Shown piece after piece: positions 28,638-47,936 of a DNA stretch of 49,398 nt. How positions within the stretch are numbered: position 1 is the first letter of the stretch; every line of letters starts with the position of its first letter. Origin of the DNA: Gaiellales bacterium (GTDB taxonomy: Bacteria > Actinomycetota > Thermoleophilia > BMS3ABIN01); contig QZKG01000059.1 of NCBI GenBank assembly GCA_003599855.1, positions 1 through 49,398 of the forward strand, given 5' to 3'. The notes beneath the pieces were generated by a model, which was not told the DNA's origin, ran no database searches, and saw only the letters and a program-made list of their open reading frames with translations. The translations under genes were made by a program, and so were the position numbers.

Positions 28638-28663
28638 AAAAAAACCTGAAAACTATTTTTGGG
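28638..28663 (-). terminator. Possible intrinsic terminator after iscU
   Basis: On the minus strand a small A/T-rich stem (CC-AAAA / TTTT-GG with mismatches) overlapping the iscU stop codon is followed by seven T residues. It would end the isc-type operon before the HD-GYP gene. The stem is weak, so this is tentative. Confidence 0.4.
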
Positions 28664-29030
28664 GGGTCTTCGAGCGGTAGTCCTCGATGGCCTTCTGGAG
28701 GCCGTCTGCGGCCAGGTTCGAGCAGTGCATCTTCTGGGGTGGCAGACCGCCCAGGGCGTCAGCTACGGCCTTCTTGGAGATCTGTGCCGCCTCGTCGAGG
28801 GACTTGCCTTTGGCCATCTCGGTGACCATGCTGCTGGTGGCGATGGCGGCGCCGCAGCCCAGCGTCTTGAATTTGACGTCCTCGATCTTGTCCTGGTCGT
28901 CGACCTTGATGGTGATACGCATGACGTCGCCGCACTGGGGGTTGCCGACCTCGCCTACCCCGTCGGGGTTCTCGACCTCGCCCATGTTGCGTGGGTTCTG
29001 GAAATGGTCCATCACTTTTTCCGAATACAT
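28653..29030 (-). CDS. iscU: Iron-sulfur cluster scaffold protein IscU
   Basis: The 125-residue product is a U-type scaffold with the three cluster cysteines C33, C59 and C103 (NPQCGD, KTLGCGAA, MHCSNLA), and D35. It begins MYSEKVMDHFQNPRNMGE. The ATG at 29030 has GGAGGAAAG just upstream, so the 25-codon extension in the same frame is not used. It is the last gene of a three-gene unit with nifS and a Rrf2-TusA regulator, and receives sulfur from the desulfurase. Confidence 0.95.
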   Translation of the reverse strand: MYSEKVMDHFQNPRNMGEVENPDGVGEVGNPQCGDVMRITIKVDDQDKIEDVKFKTLGCGAAIATSSMVTEMAKGKSLDEAAQISKKAVADALGGLPPQKMHCSNLAADGLQKAIEDYRSKTPQK

Positions 29031-29058: not shown

Positions 29059-30297
29059 TCAACTGGCGGCTTCGCAATCGCAACCTTCGGCGCTTCCGGT
29101 CGCACATTTTTTCGAGCCCCTTTTATATACTGGCGACATGCTGCGAAGCCTCTCTGTGACTTCGTAGAGCGCCTTGACCAGATAGTCGATGTCCTCGCGG
29201 TTTGTCTCCCTGGACATCGTCACTCTCACCGACCCATGGGCCAGTTCCGCTGGTACGCCCAGGGCGAGCAGAATGTGGGAAGGCTCCAGGGTTCCAGAGA
29301 CGCAGGCGGAGCCGGTGGAGATGTAGACGGGCCGGGCATCATCCGCGGTGGGGTATGAAAGTGACAGCATGATCGATTCTCCCTCGATGCCCTCGATGGA
29401 GTAGTTCACGTTGTTGGGCAGCCGGTTGGTGCGGTGGCCGTTGAGCCGTATGTCCTCGAACTTGCCCTCGATGCTCTCCATGAGGTAGTCCCTGAGACCG
29501 GTAAGCCGTTTGGCTTCGGCTTCGAGGTTCCTGCGCGCCAGCTCAGCGGCCTTGCCCAGGCCGACTATGCCGGCCACGTTCTGGGTGCCCGCGCGCCTTT
29601 TTTTCTCCTGGGCGCCTCCGTGGATGAGGGGCGTGATGCGGGTGCCGCGTCTTGCGTAGAGGGCGCCTGCCCCTTTGGGACCGTAAAACTTGTGAGCCGA
29701 TAGGGAGAGCAGGTCGCAACCCAGCTCCTGGACGTCTAACGGCACATGGCCGACGCCCTGGGCGGCGTTCACGTGGAAGGCCACACCTCTTTCCCGGGTG
29801 ATTCTGGCGATGTCCGCGACTGGCTGGATGGTGCCGATCTCGTGGTTGGCGTGGGCCAGGGTGACAAGCACCGTGTCGTCGCGTATGACCGAGGCGACCG
29901 ATCCGGGATCTACAACCCCCTCACCGTCCACAGGCAGCCAGGTCACCTCCCAGCCCTTCTTCTCCAAGAACTTGCACGGCATCAGGATCGAGTGGTGCTC
30001 GGCCACGCTGGTGATGATGTGCCGGCCCTGCTCTTCCCTGGCGTCAGCGACCCCCTTGATGGCCCAGTTGTTCGATTCAGTGGCGCCGCTGGTGAAGTAT
30101 ACGTCCTTGCTGTCGGCGCCAATCAGGTCGCCCACTTGCTGCCGCGCCTCCTCGATGGCCTGCTTGGACTGGGCGCCCAGTGTATAGAGCGTCGCGGGAC
30201 TGCCGTAGTTCTCGTCGAGCCAGGGGGACATTGCCTCGATCACTTCCCTGTCGGTCCTCGTGGTCGCCGCATTATCCAGGAATATGGGCTGCTTCAT
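29059..30297 (-). CDS. Cysteine desulfurase (NifS/IscS type)
   Basis: The 412-residue PLP enzyme begins IFLDNAATTRTDREVIEAM and has the PLP lysine K203 in SAHKFYGPKGAG and the catalytic Cys332 in STGSACVSG. Two usual PLP contacts differ: the Asn of VNNE is His152 (ANHEIG), and the Asp that binds the pyridine nitrogen is Asn177 (HVNAAQ). The C-terminus ends in a Cys-rich tail KKCATGSAEGCDCEAAS beyond the family end. The gene lies 39 bases after the regulator and 28 bases before iscU. Function is assigned from the catalytic Cys and context. Confidence 0.9.
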   Translation of the reverse strand: MKQPIFLDNAATTRTDREVIEAMSPWLDENYGSPATLYTLGAQSKQAIEEARQQVGDLIGADSKDVYFTSGATESNNWAIKGVADAREEQGRHIITSVAEHHSILMPCKFLEKKGWEVTWLPVDGEGVVDPGSVASVIRDDTVLVTLAHANHEIGTIQPVADIARITRERGVAFHVNAAQGVGHVPLDVQELGCDLLSLSAHKFYGPKGAGALYARRGTRITPLIHGGAQEKKRRAGTQNVAGIVGLGKAAELARRNLEAEAKRLTGLRDYLMESIEGKFEDIRLNGHRTNRLPNNVNYSIEGIEGESIMLSLSYPTADDARPVYISTGSACVSGTLEPSHILLALGVPAELAHGSVRVTMSRETNREDIDYLVKALYEVTERLRSMSPVYKRGSKKCATGSAEGCDCEAAS

Positions 30298-30336: not shown

Positions 30337-30999
30337 TCACAACGCCTTCTGTATCAGGAACTTCATCTGGTCTCCGTATTCCTCGCGGCCGATGAACTCG
30401 TTGCCGGAACCGATGCACCAGGCCGGTATGTCGGCTTTGGCTCCTTCATCGTCCGCCCAGACCTCCAGTATGCCGCCGGGCCTGAGCTCCCGCATCTTCT
30501 GGGATATCTTCACGATCGGCATCGGGCAGGCGACCCCGATGCAGTCGAGCTTGTCGTCCGGCGCAAGCTCTGCCGCGGCCTCACCGGCGGGTTCGCCCTT
30601 GAGGATGTCCGCGAGCATGGTCTCCTTGAGCACGTCCTCGTTGGCGCTTTTGAGCCTCGACCAGACGCTCGCCAGCACGCAACCCTCCAGGCGCCCGCAG
30701 CCGCTGTCACTATCGCTACCCGCGCAGGTCGCTGGTGAAACAGCTCCCTGCAGCACCATGACCACATCCAGCAGGCTGATCCTGGCCGGGTCTGCCGCCA
30801 GGGTGTACCCGCCGGAGGGCCCGCGCGTGCTCTCAAGCAGCCCGCCGTTCACCAGCTCCCGGAGCACCTGGGTCAGATAGGGCAGGGGCACCTGTTGCCG
30901 CTCGGCCACATGGCTGCGGTTCACCGGTCCGTCCTGCTGGTGGAGCGCGATGTCCATGAGCGCCAGCAGCCCGTACTCACTCTTTGAAGAAATCAGCAT
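30337..30999 (-). CDS. Rrf2 transcription factor fused to a TusA-like sulfurtransferase domain
   Basis: The 220-residue product has a winged-helix Rrf2 domain (about residues 1-120, SSKSEYGLLALMDIALH and GGYTLAAD) with C92, C101 and C107 in a spacing of C-x8-C-x5-C, then a linker and a TusA/SirA domain (about 150-220). The TusA active Cys158 lies in ACPMPIVK. I chose the ATG at 30999 because Rrf2 proteins begin M-x-I-S-x-K and the promoter -10 lies just upstream; an ATG at 31005 is possible. The fusion would link Fe-S or sulfur status to nifS-iscU expression. I do not know a described example of this fusion. Confidence 0.9.
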   Translation of the reverse strand: MLISSKSEYGLLALMDIALHQQDGPVNRSHVAERQQVPLPYLTQVLRELVNGGLLESTRGPSGGYTLAADPARISLLDVVMVLQGAVSPATCAGSDSDSGCGRLEGCVLASVWSRLKSANEDVLKETMLADILKGEPAGEAAAELAPDDKLDCIGVACPMPIVKISQKMRELRPGGILEVWADDEGAKADIPAWCIGSGNEFIGREEYGDQMKFLIQKAL

Positions 31000-31008
31000 G
31001 ACCATGTG

Positions 31009-31038
31009 ATTCTAAATAATGTATATAAGTAGAGTCAA
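31009..31038 (-). promoter_or_regulatory. Candidate promoter of the Rrf2-TusA/nifS/iscU operon
   Basis: On the minus strand TTGACT is followed after 18 bases by TAGAAT. Transcription would begin close to the start codons at 31005 or 30999, which suggests a leaderless mRNA. The TTGACTC-rich -35 resembles part of an IscR-like operator but no clear dyad is visible, so autoregulation is inference. Confidence 0.5.
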
Positions 31039-31173
31039 CAATTGCATATTGCCAGGATACCCCCGTACCCTGACAGGTAAACCGGGCTGTCCGAACGGGT
31101 GGCTGCCGGGGTCAGCCTGATAAGATGTGCTTATGGTCCATACCCGCGAGGGTGAGCGGCGGGAGCAGTGGGG

Positions 31174-41630: not shown

Positions 41631-42071
41631 ATGAATATCTCAGCCAAAAGCAAGTACGCAGTCAGGGCGCTTGTCGAGCTGGCCCAGCAGAACAACGGCC
41701 ACCCGATACCCATCGCCGACATCGCCTCACGCCGGGACATTCCCCTGCAGTTCCTCGAACAGCTATTCTCTACTCTCCGCAAGGCTGGAATTCTAAACAG
41801 TCACCGTGGCGTGCGCGGCGGTTTCAGCTTCAACCGGCTGCCAGAGGACGTTACGGTGCTTGACGTGGTCGAGGTCCTGGACGGCAACATCTCCCCCGCA
41901 GCCTGTACTTCAGGCGCGTCCTGCGAGCGGATCGACGGATGCATCATGAACGAGGTCTGGGGCGAGGTGAAGAGCAGCATCGAGGAGGTACTCACCTCCC
42001 ACAACATCGGAGAACTCGCATCCAGGGAGAGCCTGATGGAGAGCAAGAGCCGCGAGATGTACTACATTTGA
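41631..42071 (+). CDS. Rrf2-family transcriptional regulator (IscR/CymR type)
   Basis: The 146-residue product has an Rrf2 winged helix (SAKSKYAVRALVELAQ, GVRGGFSFNRL) and the three ligand cysteines at C92, C98 and C104, exactly the spacing and positions of E. coli IscR. It probably binds a 2Fe-2S cluster or senses cysteine/sulfide through O-acetylserine as CymR does. It heads the plus-strand operon with cysK 76 bases downstream and is likely autoregulated from the TTGACA promoter. A second Rrf2 domain, fused to TusA, controls the isc-type operon. Confidence 0.92.
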   Translation: MNISAKSKYAVRALVELAQQNNGHPIPIADIASRRDIPLQFLEQLFSTLRKAGILNSHRGVRGGFSFNRLPEDVTVLDVVEVLDGNISPAACTSGASCERIDGCIMNEVWGEVKSSIEEVLTSHNIGELASRESLMESKSREMYYI

Positions 42072-42147
42072 GCGCGGGAGCGTCATGGGGGTATAAGGGA
42101 TTTTTCAACGACTAACGGGAACAATAGGGCAGGAAGGAATGGAGAAA

Positions 42148-43116
42148 ATGACACCAAGCGACGTCACAACAGCGCGGAGAGCCCAGATGAATATCGCCAG
42201 CAACCTCTCGGAGCTTATCGGCAACACACCTCTGGTGGACCTGGGCCGCATCACCAGGGGCCTGAGCGCCTCTGTCGCGGCCAAGCTGGAAAGTTTCAAC
42301 CCCGGCGGGAGCGTGAAGGACCGCATCGGCTTCAGCATGATCGATGCGGCTGAACGGGAGGGCAAGATCGTCCCTGGCAAGACGGTCATCATCGAGCCCA
42401 CCAGCGGCAACACCGGCATCGCCCTTGCTTTCGTCTGCGCGGTGAAGGGCTACCGCCTGATCCTGACCATGCCTGACACCATGAGCATGGAGCGCCGCTC
42501 ACTGCTGCACGCCTACGGCGCGGAACTGGTGCTCACGCCAGGGCCCGAGGGGATGCGGGGCGCCGTGGCCAGGGCTGAGACCCTGGCCGCCGAGACGCCG
42601 GACTCCTTCGTGCCGCAGCAGTTCAACAACCCGGCTAACCCCGAGATCCACCGCAGGACGACCGCCGAGGAGATCTGGAAGGATACCGACGGCGGCGTGG
42701 ACATCCTCGTGGCGGGCATCGGTACCGGCGGCACCATCACCGGCGTCGGCGAGGTGCTGAGGGAGCGCAAGCCGTCGGTGCAGATCGTGGCCGTGGAGCC
42801 CCAGGCGTCTCCGGTGCTTTCCGGCGGCGACCCCGGTCCCCATCGCATCCAGGGGATCGGCGCAGGTTTCGTACCGAGCATCCTCAACACTGATATCTAT
42901 GACGAGGTCTTCCAGGTATCCAACGACGACGCTGAGGAGATGGCGAGGCGGCTGGCCCACGAAGAAGGTATACTCTGTGGTATCTCCTCCGGGGCGGCGG
43001 CCCATGCCGCTCTCGAGGTGGCCCGCAGGCCGTCGAGCAAAGGGAAGCTGGTGGTCGTCGTGTTGCCGGATACCGGCGAGCGGTACCTTACCACCCAGAT
43101 GTTCGGCGGTGCGTAG
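42148..43116 (+). CDS. cysK: Cysteine synthase, O-acetylserine sulfhydrylase type
   Basis: The roughly 322-residue PLP enzyme has [12 protein letters not shown], the Lys of [39 protein letters not shown] and the [13 protein letters not shown] phosphate cup. The pattern MSMERR is CysK-like. The start may be ATG at 42139 or 42148; the latter has AAGGA nine bases and GGAG three bases upstream. It makes cysteine from O-acetylserine and sulfide, or from a carrier thiocarboxylate as in the CysO pathway. It is followed by tusA after 30 bases. Confidence 0.94.
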
Positions 43117-43146
43117 ACAGTATCGCTCAGAGGACGGGAGGAAGAC

Positions 43147-43386
43147 ATGGATGTCAAGGAAGACCACCTGCTCGATGCCCGGGGACTGAAATGCCCGATG
43201 CCATCGGTCAAGACGGCGCTGGCCCTGGAACAGCTCGAGAGCGGCGGCATCGTCAAGGTGATCATCGACGACCCGGTCAGCAGGAACGACCTGCCGCAGT
43301 GGGTCAAGGGTAACGGGCACCATGTCCTGGGGATCGAGGAGAAGGACGATTGCGTGGAAGTGTACGTGAAAAAAGGCGGGGGATGA
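43147..43386 (+). CDS. TusA/SirA-family sulfur carrier
   Basis: The 79-residue product has the TusA active-site motif LKCPMPSVKTALALEQL, with the persulfide-carrying Cys16, and the VIIDDPVSRNDLPQWVKGNGHHV block. TusA-like proteins relay persulfide sulfur between enzymes. It lies between cysK and the ThiS-like carrier gene, with which it overlaps by ATGA. The role as a sulfur donor to the E1-carrier pair is inference. Confidence 0.92.
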   Translation: MDVKEDHLLDARGLKCPMPSVKTALALEQLESGGIVKVIIDDPVSRNDLPQWVKGNGHHVLGIEEKDDCVEVYVKKGGG

Positions 43387-43703
43387 AAGGGAACCGACAG
43401 ATGAATGCAGATGGCAGCCCGGAAATGCTAGAATTGAATGAATCGGCGCCGTCCCGCGGAAGCGGCGGCGTGATAGAACTGGTGGTCCAGGGGCGTCCGT
43501 GCCTCTATGACGGGGATCCCGACCTCGGGTCCCTGCTCGAATACCGGGGCGAGAACTCGCTCTACGTCAATGTGCGCATCAACGACGAAGTCCTGGACCA
43601 GCGTGACTTCGAGAACGTTCCCGTGCGGGAAGGCGATCGCATCGACTTCCTGTATTTCATGGGAGGGGGACTTTTTGTTCAACCTGACAGAAGAAGAAAT
43701 TGA
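43383..43703 (+). CDS. ThiS/MoaD/CysO-like sulfur carrier with a C-terminal tail beyond GG
   Basis: The 106-residue product has a ubiquitin-like beta-grasp core (about residues 29-96: IELVVQGRPCLYDG, GENSLYVNVRINDEVL, VREGDRIDFLYFMGGG). The thiocarboxylate-forming Gly-Gly normally ends the chain, but here ten residues (LFVQPDRRRN) follow GGG96. Such tails are removed by JAMM peptidases in QbsE/HcyS-type carriers. A 28-residue N-terminal extension is also unusual. The start overlaps tusA (ATGA) and the end overlaps the E1 gene by 29 bases. The Mec+-like peptidase lies two genes downstream. Confidence 0.9.
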   Translation: MKGNRQMNADGSPEMLELNESAPSRGSGGVIELVVQGRPCLYDGDPDLGSLLEYRGENSLYVNVRINDEVLDQRDFENVPVREGDRIDFLYFMGGGLFVQPDRRRN

Positions 43704-44484
43704 ACGCTATTCACGGCATATCATCCTGCCGGAGGTCGGCGGCGCGGGCCAGCAGAAGCTCAAGGAAGCCAGCGTCCTGGTGGTGGGCGCCGGCGGGCTG
43801 GGCTCCCCTGTACTGCTCTACCTGACCGCGGCCGGCATCGGCCGCATCGGCGTCATCGAGGACGACGTGGTCGACCTCACCAACCTGCAGCGCCAGGTGC
43901 TCCACACCACCTCGGACGTGGGCAAGCCCAAGGTCGAGAGCGCCAGCGAGACCATGAAGCAGATCAACCCGCACGTGCAGGTGGACGTCTACCACGAGCG
44001 CCTCAACAAGGACAACATCTTCGCGCTGCTGGACAGGTATGACATCGTCGTCGACGGCGTGGACAACTTTCCCACCAGGTACCTGATCAACGACGCCTGC
44101 GTGATGAAGAAGAAGATCCTGGTGGAGGGCGGCATACTGCGCTTCATGGGCCTGATCATGAGCATCAAGGGCGGCGAGACCGCCTGCTACCGTTGCGTCT
44201 ACGAGGAGCCGCCACCGCCGGGCACCGTCCCCAGCTGCGCCGAGGCGGGCATCCTCGGGGCCGTGGCGGGCGTCCTGGGCACCCTGCAGGCCACCGAGGT
44301 GCTCAAGATAGTCACCGGCGTTGGTGAGCCGCTCTACAACCGGCTGCTGCAGTTCGATGCCGAGGAGCTGCGCTTCCACGAGGTTAACGCGCGGCGCAAC
44401 CCCAGGTGCCCCGTCTGCGGCGAGAAGCCGACCATCACCGAGCTGGTGGAGTACGACCATTCCTGTGAGATCCAGGCGCCGTAA
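43675..44484 (+). CDS. ThiF/MoeB-type E1-like adenylyltransferase
   Basis: The 269-residue product begins FNLTEEEIERYSRHIILPEVG. It has the ATP-binding GAGGLGSP (38-45), DLTNLQRQVLH, the DGVDNFPTRYLIND block, the catalytic Cys188 in PSCAEAG, and the zinc CxxC pairs 171/174 and 245/248. It would adenylate the carrier's C-terminal Gly and assist thiocarboxylate formation. The TTG at 43675 has GGGAGGGGG just before it, within the end of the carrier gene. A C-terminal rhodanese domain, as in MOCS3, is absent, so sulfur must come from elsewhere, perhaps TusA. Confidence 0.93.
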   Translation: MFNLTEEEIERYSRHIILPEVGGAGQQKLKEASVLVVGAGGLGSPVLLYLTAAGIGRIGVIEDDVVDLTNLQRQVLHTTSDVGKPKVESASETMKQINPHVQVDVYHERLNKDNIFALLDRYDIVVDGVDNFPTRYLINDACVMKKKILVEGGILRFMGLIMSIKGGETACYRCVYEEPPPPGTVPSCAEAGILGAVAGVLGTLQATEVLKIVTGVGEPLYNRLLQFDAEELRFHEVNARRNPRCPVCGEKPTITELVEYDHSCEIQAP

Positions 44485-44491
44485 CGGGGCC

Positions 44492-44905
44492 ATGGCTCAA
44501 CCCTTGCGGCTTTCTGCCGGACAGTACCAGTCCATCATCGACCATGCCCGCGCCTGCTCGCCGGAAGAGGCCTGCGGCGTCCTGGCGGGCGCCGGCGGCG
44601 AGGTGGAGCGGGTCTTCCTGATGGAGAACGCCGAGCACAGCCCCACCTTCTACATGATGGATTCCCGGGAGCAGTTCGAGGTGTTCGATGCCATCGAGCG
44701 CGACGGGCTGGAGCTCGTCGCCATCTTCCATTCCCACCCCCACTCCCCGCCGCTGCCCTCGGCCCAGGACATGGAGCTGGCCTTCTACCCCGATGCTTTG
44801 TACCTGATCGTGTCGCTCATGGGTGAAGAACCGGAGGGCCGTGCCTTCCGCATCGTCGAGCGTGAGGTGACCGAGGCTGGCCTGGAGGTGATCGGCGATG
44901 ACTGA
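44492..44905 (+). CDS. Mec+-like JAMM/MPN+ metallopeptidase
   Basis: The 137-residue product has all JAMM zinc residues: E26 (PEEACGVL), H80 and H82 in FHSHPHSPPLPSAQDM, and D93. It matches Mec+ proteases, which release cysteine from the CysO-cysteine adduct or trim carrier tails. The E1 gene ends seven bases upstream and larE overlaps by eight. Together with the tailed carrier it suggests processing of the tail, adduct hydrolysis or both. Confidence 0.93.
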   Translation: MAQPLRLSAGQYQSIIDHARACSPEEACGVLAGAGGEVERVFLMENAEHSPTFYMMDSREQFEVFDAIERDGLELVAIFHSHPHSPPLPSAQDMELAFYPDALYLIVSLMGEEPEGRAFRIVEREVTEAGLEVIGDD

Positions 44906-45800
44906 AGACGGGCGAAAGCAGGAGGAGCTGTCCGAGGCTTTCGACGAGCCCACCGGTGAAGAGCTCGCCGCCGGCAACGAGCGGGCGCGGATGATGCATG
45001 CCACTGACCTCTTGAACCGGCTGGTGGATTATATCCGCCCCCTGGAGAGCGCTGTCGTCGCTTTTTCGGGCGGCGTGGATTCCACCCTGGTGCTGCTCCT
45101 GGCTGTAAGGGCGCTTGGCGCGGGGAATGTGCTGGCGCTGACCGCGGATTCAGACACGCTGCCGGCGCGCGAGCGGCAGGAGGCCGTCGATCTGGCGCGG
45201 CAGATCGGGGTCAGCCACACCCTGGTGGCCACCGAGGAGATGAAGAACGAGGATTTCAGCGCCAATCCGCCGGAACGCTGCTTCCACTGCAAGACCGAGC
45301 TATGGCGCCACGGGCGTCAGCTTGCCGGCCAGAGGGGCCTCAAGCACCTCCTGGACGGCGTCAACGCCGACGATGAGGGCGACTTCCGTCCGGGGATCGA
45401 GGCGAGTGACGCTGCGGGGGCGCTGCACCCCCTGGCAGCCTGTGGCGTCGGCAAGGAAGGCGTGCGGCTGCTGGCCCGGGAGCTGGGCCTGCCCAACTGG
45501 GACAAGCCGTCCCAGGCATGCCTGTCATCCCGCTTCCCCTACGGGCAGCAGATAACGCCGGCGGGGCTCAGGAGGGTCGACCAGGCGGAGGAGCTACTGC
45601 GCGGCATGGGATTCAGGGCGCTCAGGGTGCGCGACCACGGCGCCATAGCCCGCATCGAGGTGCCCCTGGATGAGATCGCCCTGCTGTCGGGCGGGGAGCG
45701 GCGGGCCGAGGTCGTCGACGGGCTCAGGGAGCTCGGCTATACCTATGTGACCATCGACCTGGAAGGCTTCCGCAGCGGCAGCATGAACGAGGCGCTGTAA
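44898..45800 (+). CDS. larE: LarE-type ATP-dependent sulfur transferase
   Basis: The 300-residue product has the PP-loop SGGVDS (57-62), a GVNADDEGDFRPG motif and the SQACLSSRFPYG signature. It has a C-x2-C pair (C128, C131) and C208. LarE of the sacrificial type uses one Cys; three Cys suggest the type with a 4Fe-4S cluster that carries a labile sulfur. LarE makes the nickel-pincer cofactor precursor with LarB and LarC, neither of which is in the window. A 40-residue acidic N-terminal extension precedes the core. It is the last gene of the operon. Confidence 0.92.
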   Translation: MTEDGRKQEELSEAFDEPTGEELAAGNERARMMHATDLLNRLVDYIRPLESAVVAFSGGVDSTLVLLLAVRALGAGNVLALTADSDTLPARERQEAVDLARQIGVSHTLVATEEMKNEDFSANPPERCFHCKTELWRHGRQLAGQRGLKHLLDGVNADDEGDFRPGIEASDAAGALHPLAACGVGKEGVRLLARELGLPNWDKPSQACLSSRFPYGQQITPAGLRRVDQAEELLRGMGFRALRVRDHGAIARIEVPLDEIALLSGGERRAEVVDGLRELGYTYVTIDLEGFRSGSMNEAL

Positions 45801-45874
45801 TATTCTGGCAATATTACTCCTATGCCAGACTCAGTGGTCGGCGCTGAGCACCAACCCGCGAACTCTTTCTTGTA

Positions 45875-46462
45875 TTACGGCTCCAGGCTGAAAGGCGGGT
45901 AATCGTCGGTGATGAGCAGCATCGCGTAAGCCTGCACCCTTATCCCCCACCGCATGACCCCCAGAACGAAATCGAACATCCCACGCGGATACCTGCCGGT
46001 GATGAGAATGGCGAACCAGGCGATCAGGGTGACGAACATGACAGCTACTCCCAGGAAATACAGGATGAAGATATGGGGGACCGCCAGCAGCCACTTCACC
46101 AGCGGCATGCCCCGACCCAGCTTCTGCGCGTCGGGGTATTCCAGTTCGAGGTGGACCGACTGCTGTTCGTCGGAAGACGGGTATTCATGGGTCAAGAGCA
46201 GCATGTAGCTGTAAATCCTCAGGCCGAAGCGCGTCAGCGCCAGGTTCCAGTCGAACCACCAGCGAGGATATTTCTTGCGGAAGAGGATCATGAGCAGCAG
46301 GGCGAAGAAGAGGTAGCCGGCGGCGTAGGACGCGAGGCTCCAGATGATGGCGATGGGGATGACCACGATCAGGCGGAAGAAGGTGGTCAGCCGGTTGGCG
46401 GCTTCGGGATAATCGATGTGCAGGCTGGCTGGGTAGCCCCGGACGGATGCTTCAGTGGCCAT
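45875..46462 (-). CDS. DUF4389 membrane protein
   Basis: The 195-residue product has two similar halves, each with a hydrophobic pair of helices followed by a RYP/KYPRW-type loop: FRKKYPRWWFDWNLALTRFGLRIYSYMLLLT and ITGRYPRGMFDFVLGVMRWGIRVQAYAMLLIT (in pieces). This duplication is typical of DUF4389. Function is unknown. CTGGAGG precedes the ATG at 46462. It converges on larE across 74 bases. Confidence 0.88.
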   Translation of the reverse strand: MATEASVRGYPASLHIDYPEAANRLTTFFRLIVVIPIAIIWSLASYAAGYLFFALLLMILFRKKYPRWWFDWNLALTRFGLRIYSYMLLLTHEYPSSDEQQSVHLELEYPDAQKLGRGMPLVKWLLAVPHIFILYFLGVAVMFVTLIAWFAILITGRYPRGMFDFVLGVMRWGIRVQAYAMLLITDDYPPFSLEP

Positions 46463-46759
46463 GATGTCCTCCAGTGTCGGTTGTCCTGCAAATAATGCTT
46501 CGCTAGCGGCGGCGCGTCTCCTTCCGGTGGCAGCGCCCTCCGAAAGCCAGATGCTCTAATCAACTATCCGGTAGCGGCGAACCGTAAACAGGAGAATGGC
46601 GCAGGGAAGTCCGTCAGTGTTGTGGCGCCAGGGGTTGCTGTCTGACCGCCATCGTCAGACTGACGCCCAGGAGGGTGTTGCCGAAGGAGTCTTCTTCAGT
46701 GGTGGAGAGGGCCGGCTGATGGACTGGTTTCCCGACACGGGACCCTTGCGGGCAGATAG
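46463..46759. other. Intergenic stretch without a clear gene
   Basis: These 297 bases separate DUF4389 and the NIL-domain gene. A 7-bp inverted repeat (GTCTGAC/GTCAGAC) lies at 46640-46660 without a T-run. A short frame from 46596 follows AGGAG but runs antisense into the NIL gene and is probably not a gene. I see no riboswitch motif that I can name. Confidence 0.4.
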
Positions 46760-46996
46760 CTACTCCACGAACGAATCGAGGAACTCGATCTCGACGCCGA
46801 TCTCCTTGAGGTATCCGTAGGCGCGCTGCAGCGCCTCCTCCTCCCCGCTAAGCTCCATGATGATCTGCCCGAAGGTCTCGTCGACGCTGGCACGCCGGAT
46901 GTTGGGGATGACGTCGTATTCCTTCACCAGTTGATAGATGATCGGCTTCTTGATCAGCTTTTCCGGGAAAACAAGCTCAAGCCGCTGGGTCTTCAT
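46760..46996 (-). CDS. NIL-domain protein
   Basis: The 78-residue product consists almost only of a NIL domain (RLELVFPEKLIKKPIIYQLVKEYDV, in pieces, then IIMELSGEEEALQRAYGYLKEIGVEIEFL). NIL domains occur at the C-terminus of MetN and beside ferredoxins in sulfur assimilation, where they bind methionine or related ligands. AGGAGG lies upstream of the ATG. It is divergent from cysE, consistent with a sulfur amino acid link. Confidence 0.88.
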   Translation of the reverse strand: MKTQRLELVFPEKLIKKPIIYQLVKEYDVIPNIRRASVDETFGQIIMELSGEEEALQRAYGYLKEIGVEIEFLDSFVE

Positions 46997-47123
46997 CCCG
47001 AGTACCTCCTTCAGGCCGGGTATCTGCCGGCTGTAGATGATTCTGTTATATTATCAGCAAGTGACGCAGCCATACTATCCGAAGCGGGCGCGGGATGGAA
47101 CCGTCCGCCGAAGAAAGGTGAGA

Positions 47124-47936
47124 ATGGGCCTGTTGAAGAAAACCGGCGCCGCGCTGGCGGCAGGGGGCGCCGCCCTGCTGGCGCTCAGAGAGCGGGAGCA
47201 CCTGGGCGAGACCGCCCGGGCGATCCGGCGTGACATAGCGGCGATCCAGGAGCGGGACCCGGCGGCGGCCAACATCGTCGAGGCGCTGACCTGCTATTCC
47301 GGCCTGCACGCGGTGATGATGCACCGGGTGGCGCACATGCTCTACGAGCAGAACCTGCCGGTGGTCCCCCGCATCCTTTCCCAGGTGAACCGGTTCGTCA
47401 CCGGCATCGAGATCCACCCCGCCGCCAGGATCGGCGAGGGGTTCTTCATCGACCACGGCGCCGGCGTCGTCATCGGCGAGACCACCGAGGTGGGCAATAA
47501 CGTCACCATCTACCAGGGCGTGACCCTGGGCGGCACCGGCAAGGAGACCGGCAAGCGCCACCCCACGCTCAAGGACAACGTCACCATCGGCGCCGGGGCC
47601 AAGGTGCTGGGCTCGGTGACCGTGGGCGAGAACGCCAAGATCGGCGCCGGCAGCATCGTCATCCACGACGTGCCGGCTGACTCGACGGTGGTGGGCAACC
47701 CGGGACGTCCCGTGCGCGAGCAGGGGCGCAAGGTGGGCGCCGCCGACGTGGACTGGACACACCTCCCCGACCCGGTGGCCGACGCCATGCGGTCGCTGGT
47801 GAGCCGGCTGGTGGAGCTGGAGAACGAGATGAAGGAAGCCTTCCCCGAGATGAAGGAGCGCATCGAGCAGGGGCAGGAAGAAGGAGAACGGGAGCTGGAC
47901 AAGGTATTCGACTACTATCAGGGGCTGGAAGAATAG
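47124..47936 (+). CDS. cysE: Serine O-acetyltransferase
   Basis: The 270-residue product has a helical N-terminal domain and a left-handed beta-helix with hexapeptide repeats (IHPAARIGEGFFIDHGAGVVIGE, GVTLGGTGKETGKRHPTL, IGAGAKVLGSVTVGENAKIGAGSIVIHDV, all in pieces). The active-site His in FIDHG is present. AAAGGTGAG precedes the ATG at 47124. A 60-residue acidic helix follows the beta-helix and the chain ends in Glu-Glu rather than the Ile that CysE uses to bind CysK. It supplies O-acetylserine for the CysK at 42148. Confidence 0.93.
   Translation: MGLLKKTGAALAAGGAALLALREREHLGETARAIRRDIAAIQERDPAAANIVEALTCYSGLHAVMMHRVAHMLYEQNLPVVPRILSQVNRFVTGIEIHPAARIGEGFFIDHGAGVVIGETTEVGNNVTIYQGVTLGGTGKETGKRHPTLKDNVTIGAGAKVLGSVTVGENAKIGAGSIVIHDVPADSTVVGNPGRPVREQGRKVGAADVDWTHLPDPVADAMRSLVSRLVELENEMKEAFPEMKERIEQGQEEGERELDKVFDYYQGLEE

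Follow-up and report, generated by a model that had tools for sequence, protein, structure and literature searches.

An Rrf2 regulator fused to a TusA domain heads the nifS-iscU operon in a family of uncultured actinobacteria

The fusion gene and its operon

The window analysed here is a stretch of 49,398 nucleotides from a Gaiellales bacterium (contig QZKG01000059.1), and all positions refer to it unless a contig handle is given. An Rrf2 regulator fused to a TusA sulfurtransferase had been predicted at positions 30337 to 30999. The coordinates proved correct, and the gene, for which no strand had been given, lies on the minus strand; translation of the plus strand across the same interval is broken. 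The minus-strand frame from 31005 to 30337 is a single intact open reading frame in which a linker joins an Rrf2 domain to a complete TusA domain, and both domains were recovered by Pfam within it. An ATG at 31005 would give a product of 222 amino acids. The second ATG of the frame (M3), at 30999, is the likelier start codon, because a start is possible there in all 16 aligned fusions and the -10 hexamer of the promoter ends at 31009. Residues are counted from M3, and with this start the numbering originally given to the cysteines (92, 101, 107 and 158) holds. As had also been proposed, the gene heads a nifS-iscU operon: nifS follows after a gap of 39 bp, iscU comes next, and profile searches identified NifS and IscU as typical members of their families. 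The features of the locus, all on the minus strand, are as follows.

31017 to 31041 (-): putative operator WTGTTGACT-N7-TNYACAWTA, an imperfect dyad across the -35 hexamer and spacer
31009 to 31038 (-): sigma-70-type promoter TTGACT-18-TAGAAT
30337 to 30999 (-): Rrf2-TusA fusion gene, 220 amino acids from the conserved ATG at 30999
30598 to 30993 (-): Rrf2 winged-helix domain and dimerisation helix (Pfam PF02082, E 4.5e-36; AF2 pLDDT about 90 in the winged helix)
30976 to 30978 (-): Glu8, invariant in 16/16 fusions, aligned with the position of NsrR Asp8
30679 to 30726 (-): Cys92-Cys101-Cys107 loop, putative Fe-S ligands, invariant in 16 fusions
30553 to 30594 (-): flexible linker, about 13-33 residues in relatives, low pLDDT at residues 136-144
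30346 to 30552 (-): TusA domain (Pfam PF01206, E 3.5e-21; Foldseek TM 0.87 to E. coli TusA, 3lvj_C)
30517 to 30528 (-): CPMP motif with acceptor Cys158; Cys158-Pro-x-Pro161 invariant in 16 fusions
29059 to 30297 (-): nifS, cysteine desulfurase (TIGR03402, 3e-151), PLP lysine and catalytic Cys loop kept
28653 to 29030 (-): iscU/nifU-type scaffold (TIGR03419, 1.5e-61); a longer GTG frame reaches 29105

Distribution of the fusion

The fusion was found at full length in 16 of the 19 genomes of the taxonomic family, which consists of uncultured actinobacteria. One of these genomes is 'Bacterium BMS3Abin01', and the order BMS3ABIN01 has been placed in Actinobacteriota (PMC9948709). The search of related genomes that had been proposed along with the prediction thus yielded 15 further fusions, from distinct assemblies, with 59-66% identity and no internal stops, and wherever a fusion contig extends far enough to either side, the gene order is always metG-tatD-fusion-nifS-iscU. 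The Rrf2-TusA domain architecture is therefore real and conserved. A search of 5.39 million papers returned no report of an Rrf2-TusA fusion, in agreement with the original statement that no characterised example was known, and the architecture is apparently undescribed so far.

Three family genomes, G014, G017 and G018, were without the fusion. Since G017 (85% complete) and G018 (78% complete) are incomplete and also lack the operon, including its IscU, the locus is probably unassembled in both. Beyond the family, no fusion turned up among 399 genomes from the class and 397 drawn from the phylum, in the class to which the nearest unfused relatives belong, or in plasmid records (0 of 350 records covering 80%). 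The apparent restriction to the family applies to these class and phylum samples, since the single-sequence contig query reaches close relatives alone.

The Rrf2 half

Membership of the Rrf2 family was clear (PF02082, 124.3 bits against a cut-off of 30), and a Foldseek search with the AF2 model recovered IscR, CymR, RsrR and NsrR as PDB relatives. The equivalog models were not reached: scores were 86.9 against 207.55 bits for IscR (TIGR02010), 24.6 against 182 for NsrR and 80.2 against 195 for CymR (NF047409). The three predicted cysteines are conserved in the fusions, the three-Cys loop is also present in unfused relatives, and residues 90-106 of the loop are disordered in the AF2 model. Spacing in the fusions is C-X8-9-C-X5-C, with no His at +3 and hence no His107. 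Judged by its sequence the regulator is not a canonical IscR, because it falls below the IscR equivalog cut-off, differs in Cys spacing, lacks His107 and carries an invariant Glu8. The original comparison with IscR-type regulators is thus borne out by the three cysteines and the nifS-iscU operon, but not by the TIGR02010 score, the C-X5-C-X5-C spacing or His107.

The TusA half and the linker

The C-terminal domain is a TusA by Pfam (PF01206, 75.3 bits against 28.6), with CPxP and the equivalents of E. coli Asp45 and Asp51 in 16/16 fusions, and lies below the cut-off of the E. coli TusA equivalog (NF001423, 48.4 against 78 bits). The predicted CPMP active site is intact, and the CPxP cysteine, whose loss in homologues would have refuted a sulfurtransferase role, is kept in every fusion. 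Cys153, Asp184, Asp190 and Cys195 are also invariant in all 16; Asp184 and Asp190 correspond to Asp45 and Asp51 of E. coli TusA, two residues that help in sulfur transfer (PMC2854127). Mean identity, compared across the same 10 genomes, was 75% for TusA and 66% for Rrf2; the linker averaged 14% over all 16 fusions. That TusA is better conserved than Rrf2 across so variable a linker points to strong selection for keeping TusA both functional and tethered. The AF2 model (pTM 0.54) consists of two confident domains with a disordered Cys loop and linker and gives no relative orientation of the domains, and the TusA half is best read as a loosely tethered domain competent to carry a persulfide.

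The residues with which E. coli TusA docks on IscS are largely replaced, R27 and F58 being S/A and G in the fusions, with matching changes at their IscS partners W45 and E49, which are S/A and mostly Q in the NifS of the operon. The sole retained pair is R31, kept in 11/16 fusions, opposite D/E52 of NifS. By homology to the E. coli IscS-TusA pair, docking of the fused TusA on NifS is at most a candidate interaction.

Promoter and putative operator

The dyad, or a diverged version of it, occurs upstream of all fusions. Its centre gave the highest complementarity of all centres tried (0.50; runner-up 0.41). With at most one mismatch, exactly one site was found in each of 14 family genomes, and each time it preceded the fusion gene (or, in G014, its TusA-less form), against 0-1 matches for the reversed control pattern. 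As the pattern was built from these same sites, the information lies solely in its absence from other positions, and the promoter accounts for part of the conservation. The three fusion genomes without a match carry diverged sites. Since the dyad occurs once per genome and always before the fusion gene, the protein is best read as a single-target autoregulator. The promoter (31009-31038) lies so near the start codon that the mRNA is predicted to be nearly leaderless in most relatives. An operator shared with the second Rrf2 gene of the window (41631, plus strand) was considered and rejected, as the promoter there is different.

A regulator without TusA

In G014 the gene order is tatD-Rrf2-nifS-iscU, with a regulator of 163 amino acids and no TusA domain (L055:2011-2502, minus strand); the operator and operon are the same. 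Its Rrf2 nests inside the fusion clade as sister to that of G001 (100/94), and on this placement the G014 form is a secondary loss of the TusA domain (n=1). Since regulator, operator, nifS and iscU are all kept there without TusA, regulation of the operon can do without this domain, which is not indispensable.

Origin of the fusion

The closest unfused Rrf2 proteins (G686, G660, G669 and G545) are about 140 amino acids long. On three contigs of these relatives (G686, G660 and G545) the gene lies in an rrf2 - nifS-like - dsrE2 - tusA operon, followed in G660 by NfnAB/SudAB-like genes. The Rrf2 domains of the fusions and of these operons form one clade (99/99), and the fused, operonic and DsrE2-linked TusAs form another (99/100), in which the fused TusAs group together (83/94). 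That the relatives of both halves are operon partners when unfused fits the Rosetta-stone prediction, and the unfused operon would represent the precursor of a fusion that arose once. In the NifS-like proteins of the unfused operons (L099:2171-3361, L100:4167-5378 and L102:5480-6637, all minus strand) HK has become SQ or NQ, so that the PLP lysine is missing, but the catalytic Cys loop SGSAC is kept; these proteins are perhaps PLP-free persulfide carriers.

Sulfur and Fe-S genes of the family

SufB/D was not found in 17/19 family genomes, the other two giving weak partial matches; its presence in all 14 control genomes makes the absence unusual. The IscU of the operon is the only NifU_N match in nearly all family genomes, apart from a degenerate domain fused to MnmA, and nifS-iscU is the only dedicated Fe-S assembly operon seen in the family. 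With no SufB/D in 17/19 genomes and only one intact NifU_N in nearly all, the fusion regulator sits on the central Fe-S operon. Most family genomes have 2-5 TusAs besides the fused one, and several DsrE and DsrE2 genes are present.

The tRNA 2-thiouridylase MnmA is fused behind an N-terminal IscU/NifU_N-like domain in 19/19 family genomes (for example L174:1204-2898, minus strand, and L175:1397-2899, plus strand). In the G009 protein this domain retains just one of three scaffold cysteines; it is possibly a built-in sulfur-delivery domain. A second sulfur cluster of fixed synteny lies at 41631-47936 on the plus strand of the window (Rrf2b - cysK - tusA - ThiS/MoaD - moeB - JAMM protease - LarE-like - cysE). 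It resembles a CysO/Mec-type cysteine route plus a TusA, and the promoter of Rrf2b differs from that of the fusion gene.

Possible mechanism

The fusion suggests that sulfur supply is wired directly into a gene switch. The explanation that we favour, tentatively and at somewhat less than an even chance, is that the protein is an autoregulator of the family's only dedicated Fe-S operon, in which a cluster-reading Rrf2 is combined with a TusA persulfide carrier that senses NifS sulfur left unused. The Rrf2 half would dimerise on the dyad that overlies the promoter of its own gene, repressing it, and a cluster on Cys92, Cys101 and Cys107, possibly with Glu8 as fourth ligand, would read Fe-S status by analogy with IscR and NsrR. 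The TusA half would most likely take sulfur from, or dock on, the NifS encoded by the same mRNA. IscU and TusA exclude each other on IscS (PMC2854127), which suggests that a shortage or saturation of IscU would leave NifS available to the TusA of the regulator. Further precedents are the cluster ligation of NsrR (PMC5411485) and the action of CymR through a partner enzyme (PMC9338935). The regulator would thereby feel desulfurase sulfur that IscU had not used and adjust the operon, perhaps through an effect of the persulfide on DNA binding. Observed parts of this explanation are the architecture and its conservation, the operon, the once-per-genome dyad, the single origin and the one loss of TusA. 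Against it, TusA is dispensable in G014, neither the unconserved linker nor the pTM of 0.54 hints at a fixed contact between the domains, and the E. coli-type docking residues are replaced on both the TusA and the NifS side. An extended form, in which Fe-S status through the Rrf2 cluster and sulfur flux through the TusA persulfide are integrated at a single operator, so that a bacterium lacking SUF could match its sulfur to its scaffold, is conceivable and rather doubtful. Of the two roles first proposed, a regulator reporting sulfur flux is possible on the sequence evidence. Relaying sulfur to the scaffold is the less convincing one, because in E. coli TusA and IscU vie for the sulfur of IscS (PMC2854127).

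Coupled sensing and an uncoupled bifunctional protein lie close in probability. It may well be, even if we lean away from it, that the fused TusA is a sulfurtransferase of the usual kind serving other acceptors (DsrE-type proteins, or cofactor or tRNA thiolation), joined to an independently acting Rrf2 for co-expression or stoichiometry. The floppy, unconserved linker and the clean loss of TusA in G014 with all else kept agree with such an arrangement, and the DsrE and DsrE2 proteins of the family could be its acceptors. However, near-complete genomes, each of which already holds 2-4 free TusAs, need no regulator attached to an extra carrier, a low-abundance DNA-bound repressor is an odd site for a bulk carrier, and MnmA, the usual client of TusA, has its own IscU-like domain and may not need the fused one.

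It is improbable that the TusA half delivers sulfur from NifS either to IscU or to the cluster site within the regulator itself, so that the sensor would acquire its cluster faster. A carrier and a three-Cys loop do share one flexibly tethered chain, in an operon with nifS and iscU, but free IscR matures without a carrier domain and G014 manages without TusA. In E. coli, moreover, IscS cannot accommodate TusA and IscU at once, the two being competitors (PMC2854127). Still less probable is a sensor of sulfane sulfur only, whose Cys loop and TusA cysteine would react with polysulfide like other persulfide-sensing repressors and hold no cluster. The nearest unfused Rrf2s do head operons of DsrE2, TusA and, in G660, NfnAB/SudAB-like genes rather than an Fe-S scaffold, and the C-X8-9-C-X5-C spacing is unlike that of cluster-binding IscR or NsrR, but the fusions share with cluster-binding Rrf2 proteins an unvarying third Cys and Glu8, and the operon under control is one for Fe-S assembly. 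The artefact against which the prediction had cautioned, a frameshift or misassembly joining two genes, found no support beyond the one genome (G014) without the TusA half, whose nested position (100/94) marks a loss, and is ruled out by the 15 other intact fusions.

The favoured mechanism is sharply testable. Known Fe-S regulators read clusters; a regulator that carries a sulfurtransferase domain of its own brings the largely unexplored sensing of desulfurase sulfur flux within reach of one point mutation (C158A), with G014 as a natural TusA-less control under the same operator and operon.

Comparison with known systems

IscR of E. coli and of Thermincola potens (4cic, the best PDB sequence match) shares with the fusion the Rrf2 fold, three cysteines and a place at the head of a desulfurase-scaffold operon, and autoregulation is probable in both. 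E. coli IscR has C-X5-C-X5-C-X2-H (His107), whereas the fusion differs in spacing, lacks this His and has an invariant Glu8; unlike IscR, it also carries a C-terminal TusA and apparently has one target site per genome. NsrR and RsrR have a carboxylate at position 8, as does the fusion, in which ligation by Glu8 is a candidate only. The [4Fe-4S] cluster of NsrR is held by three Cys and by Asp8 of the other monomer (PMC5411485). NsrR differs in sensing NO and controlling hmp genes, and its sequence match to the fusion is weak. CymR of Bacillus and Staphylococcus is an Rrf2 regulator of sulfur metabolism with a partner enzyme, but has neither a TusA domain nor an isc operon; a passage of PMC9338935 describes it as acting in complex with a cysteine-synthesis enzyme.

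E. coli TusA (3lvj_C) has its fold (TM 0.87), CPxP and the Asp45/Asp51 equivalents in common with the fused domain, which differs in being joined to a regulator and in the replacement of R27 and F58. In E. coli, TusA and IscU bind IscS in a mutually exclusive manner and not successively (PMC2854127). The fused TusA is nearest to TusAs encoded with DsrE2. The unfused rrf2 - nifS-like - dsrE2 - tusA operons of G686, G660 and G545, with separate proteins, no iscU and a NifS-like protein without the PLP lysine, hold the nearest relatives of both halves, and show which parts became joined.
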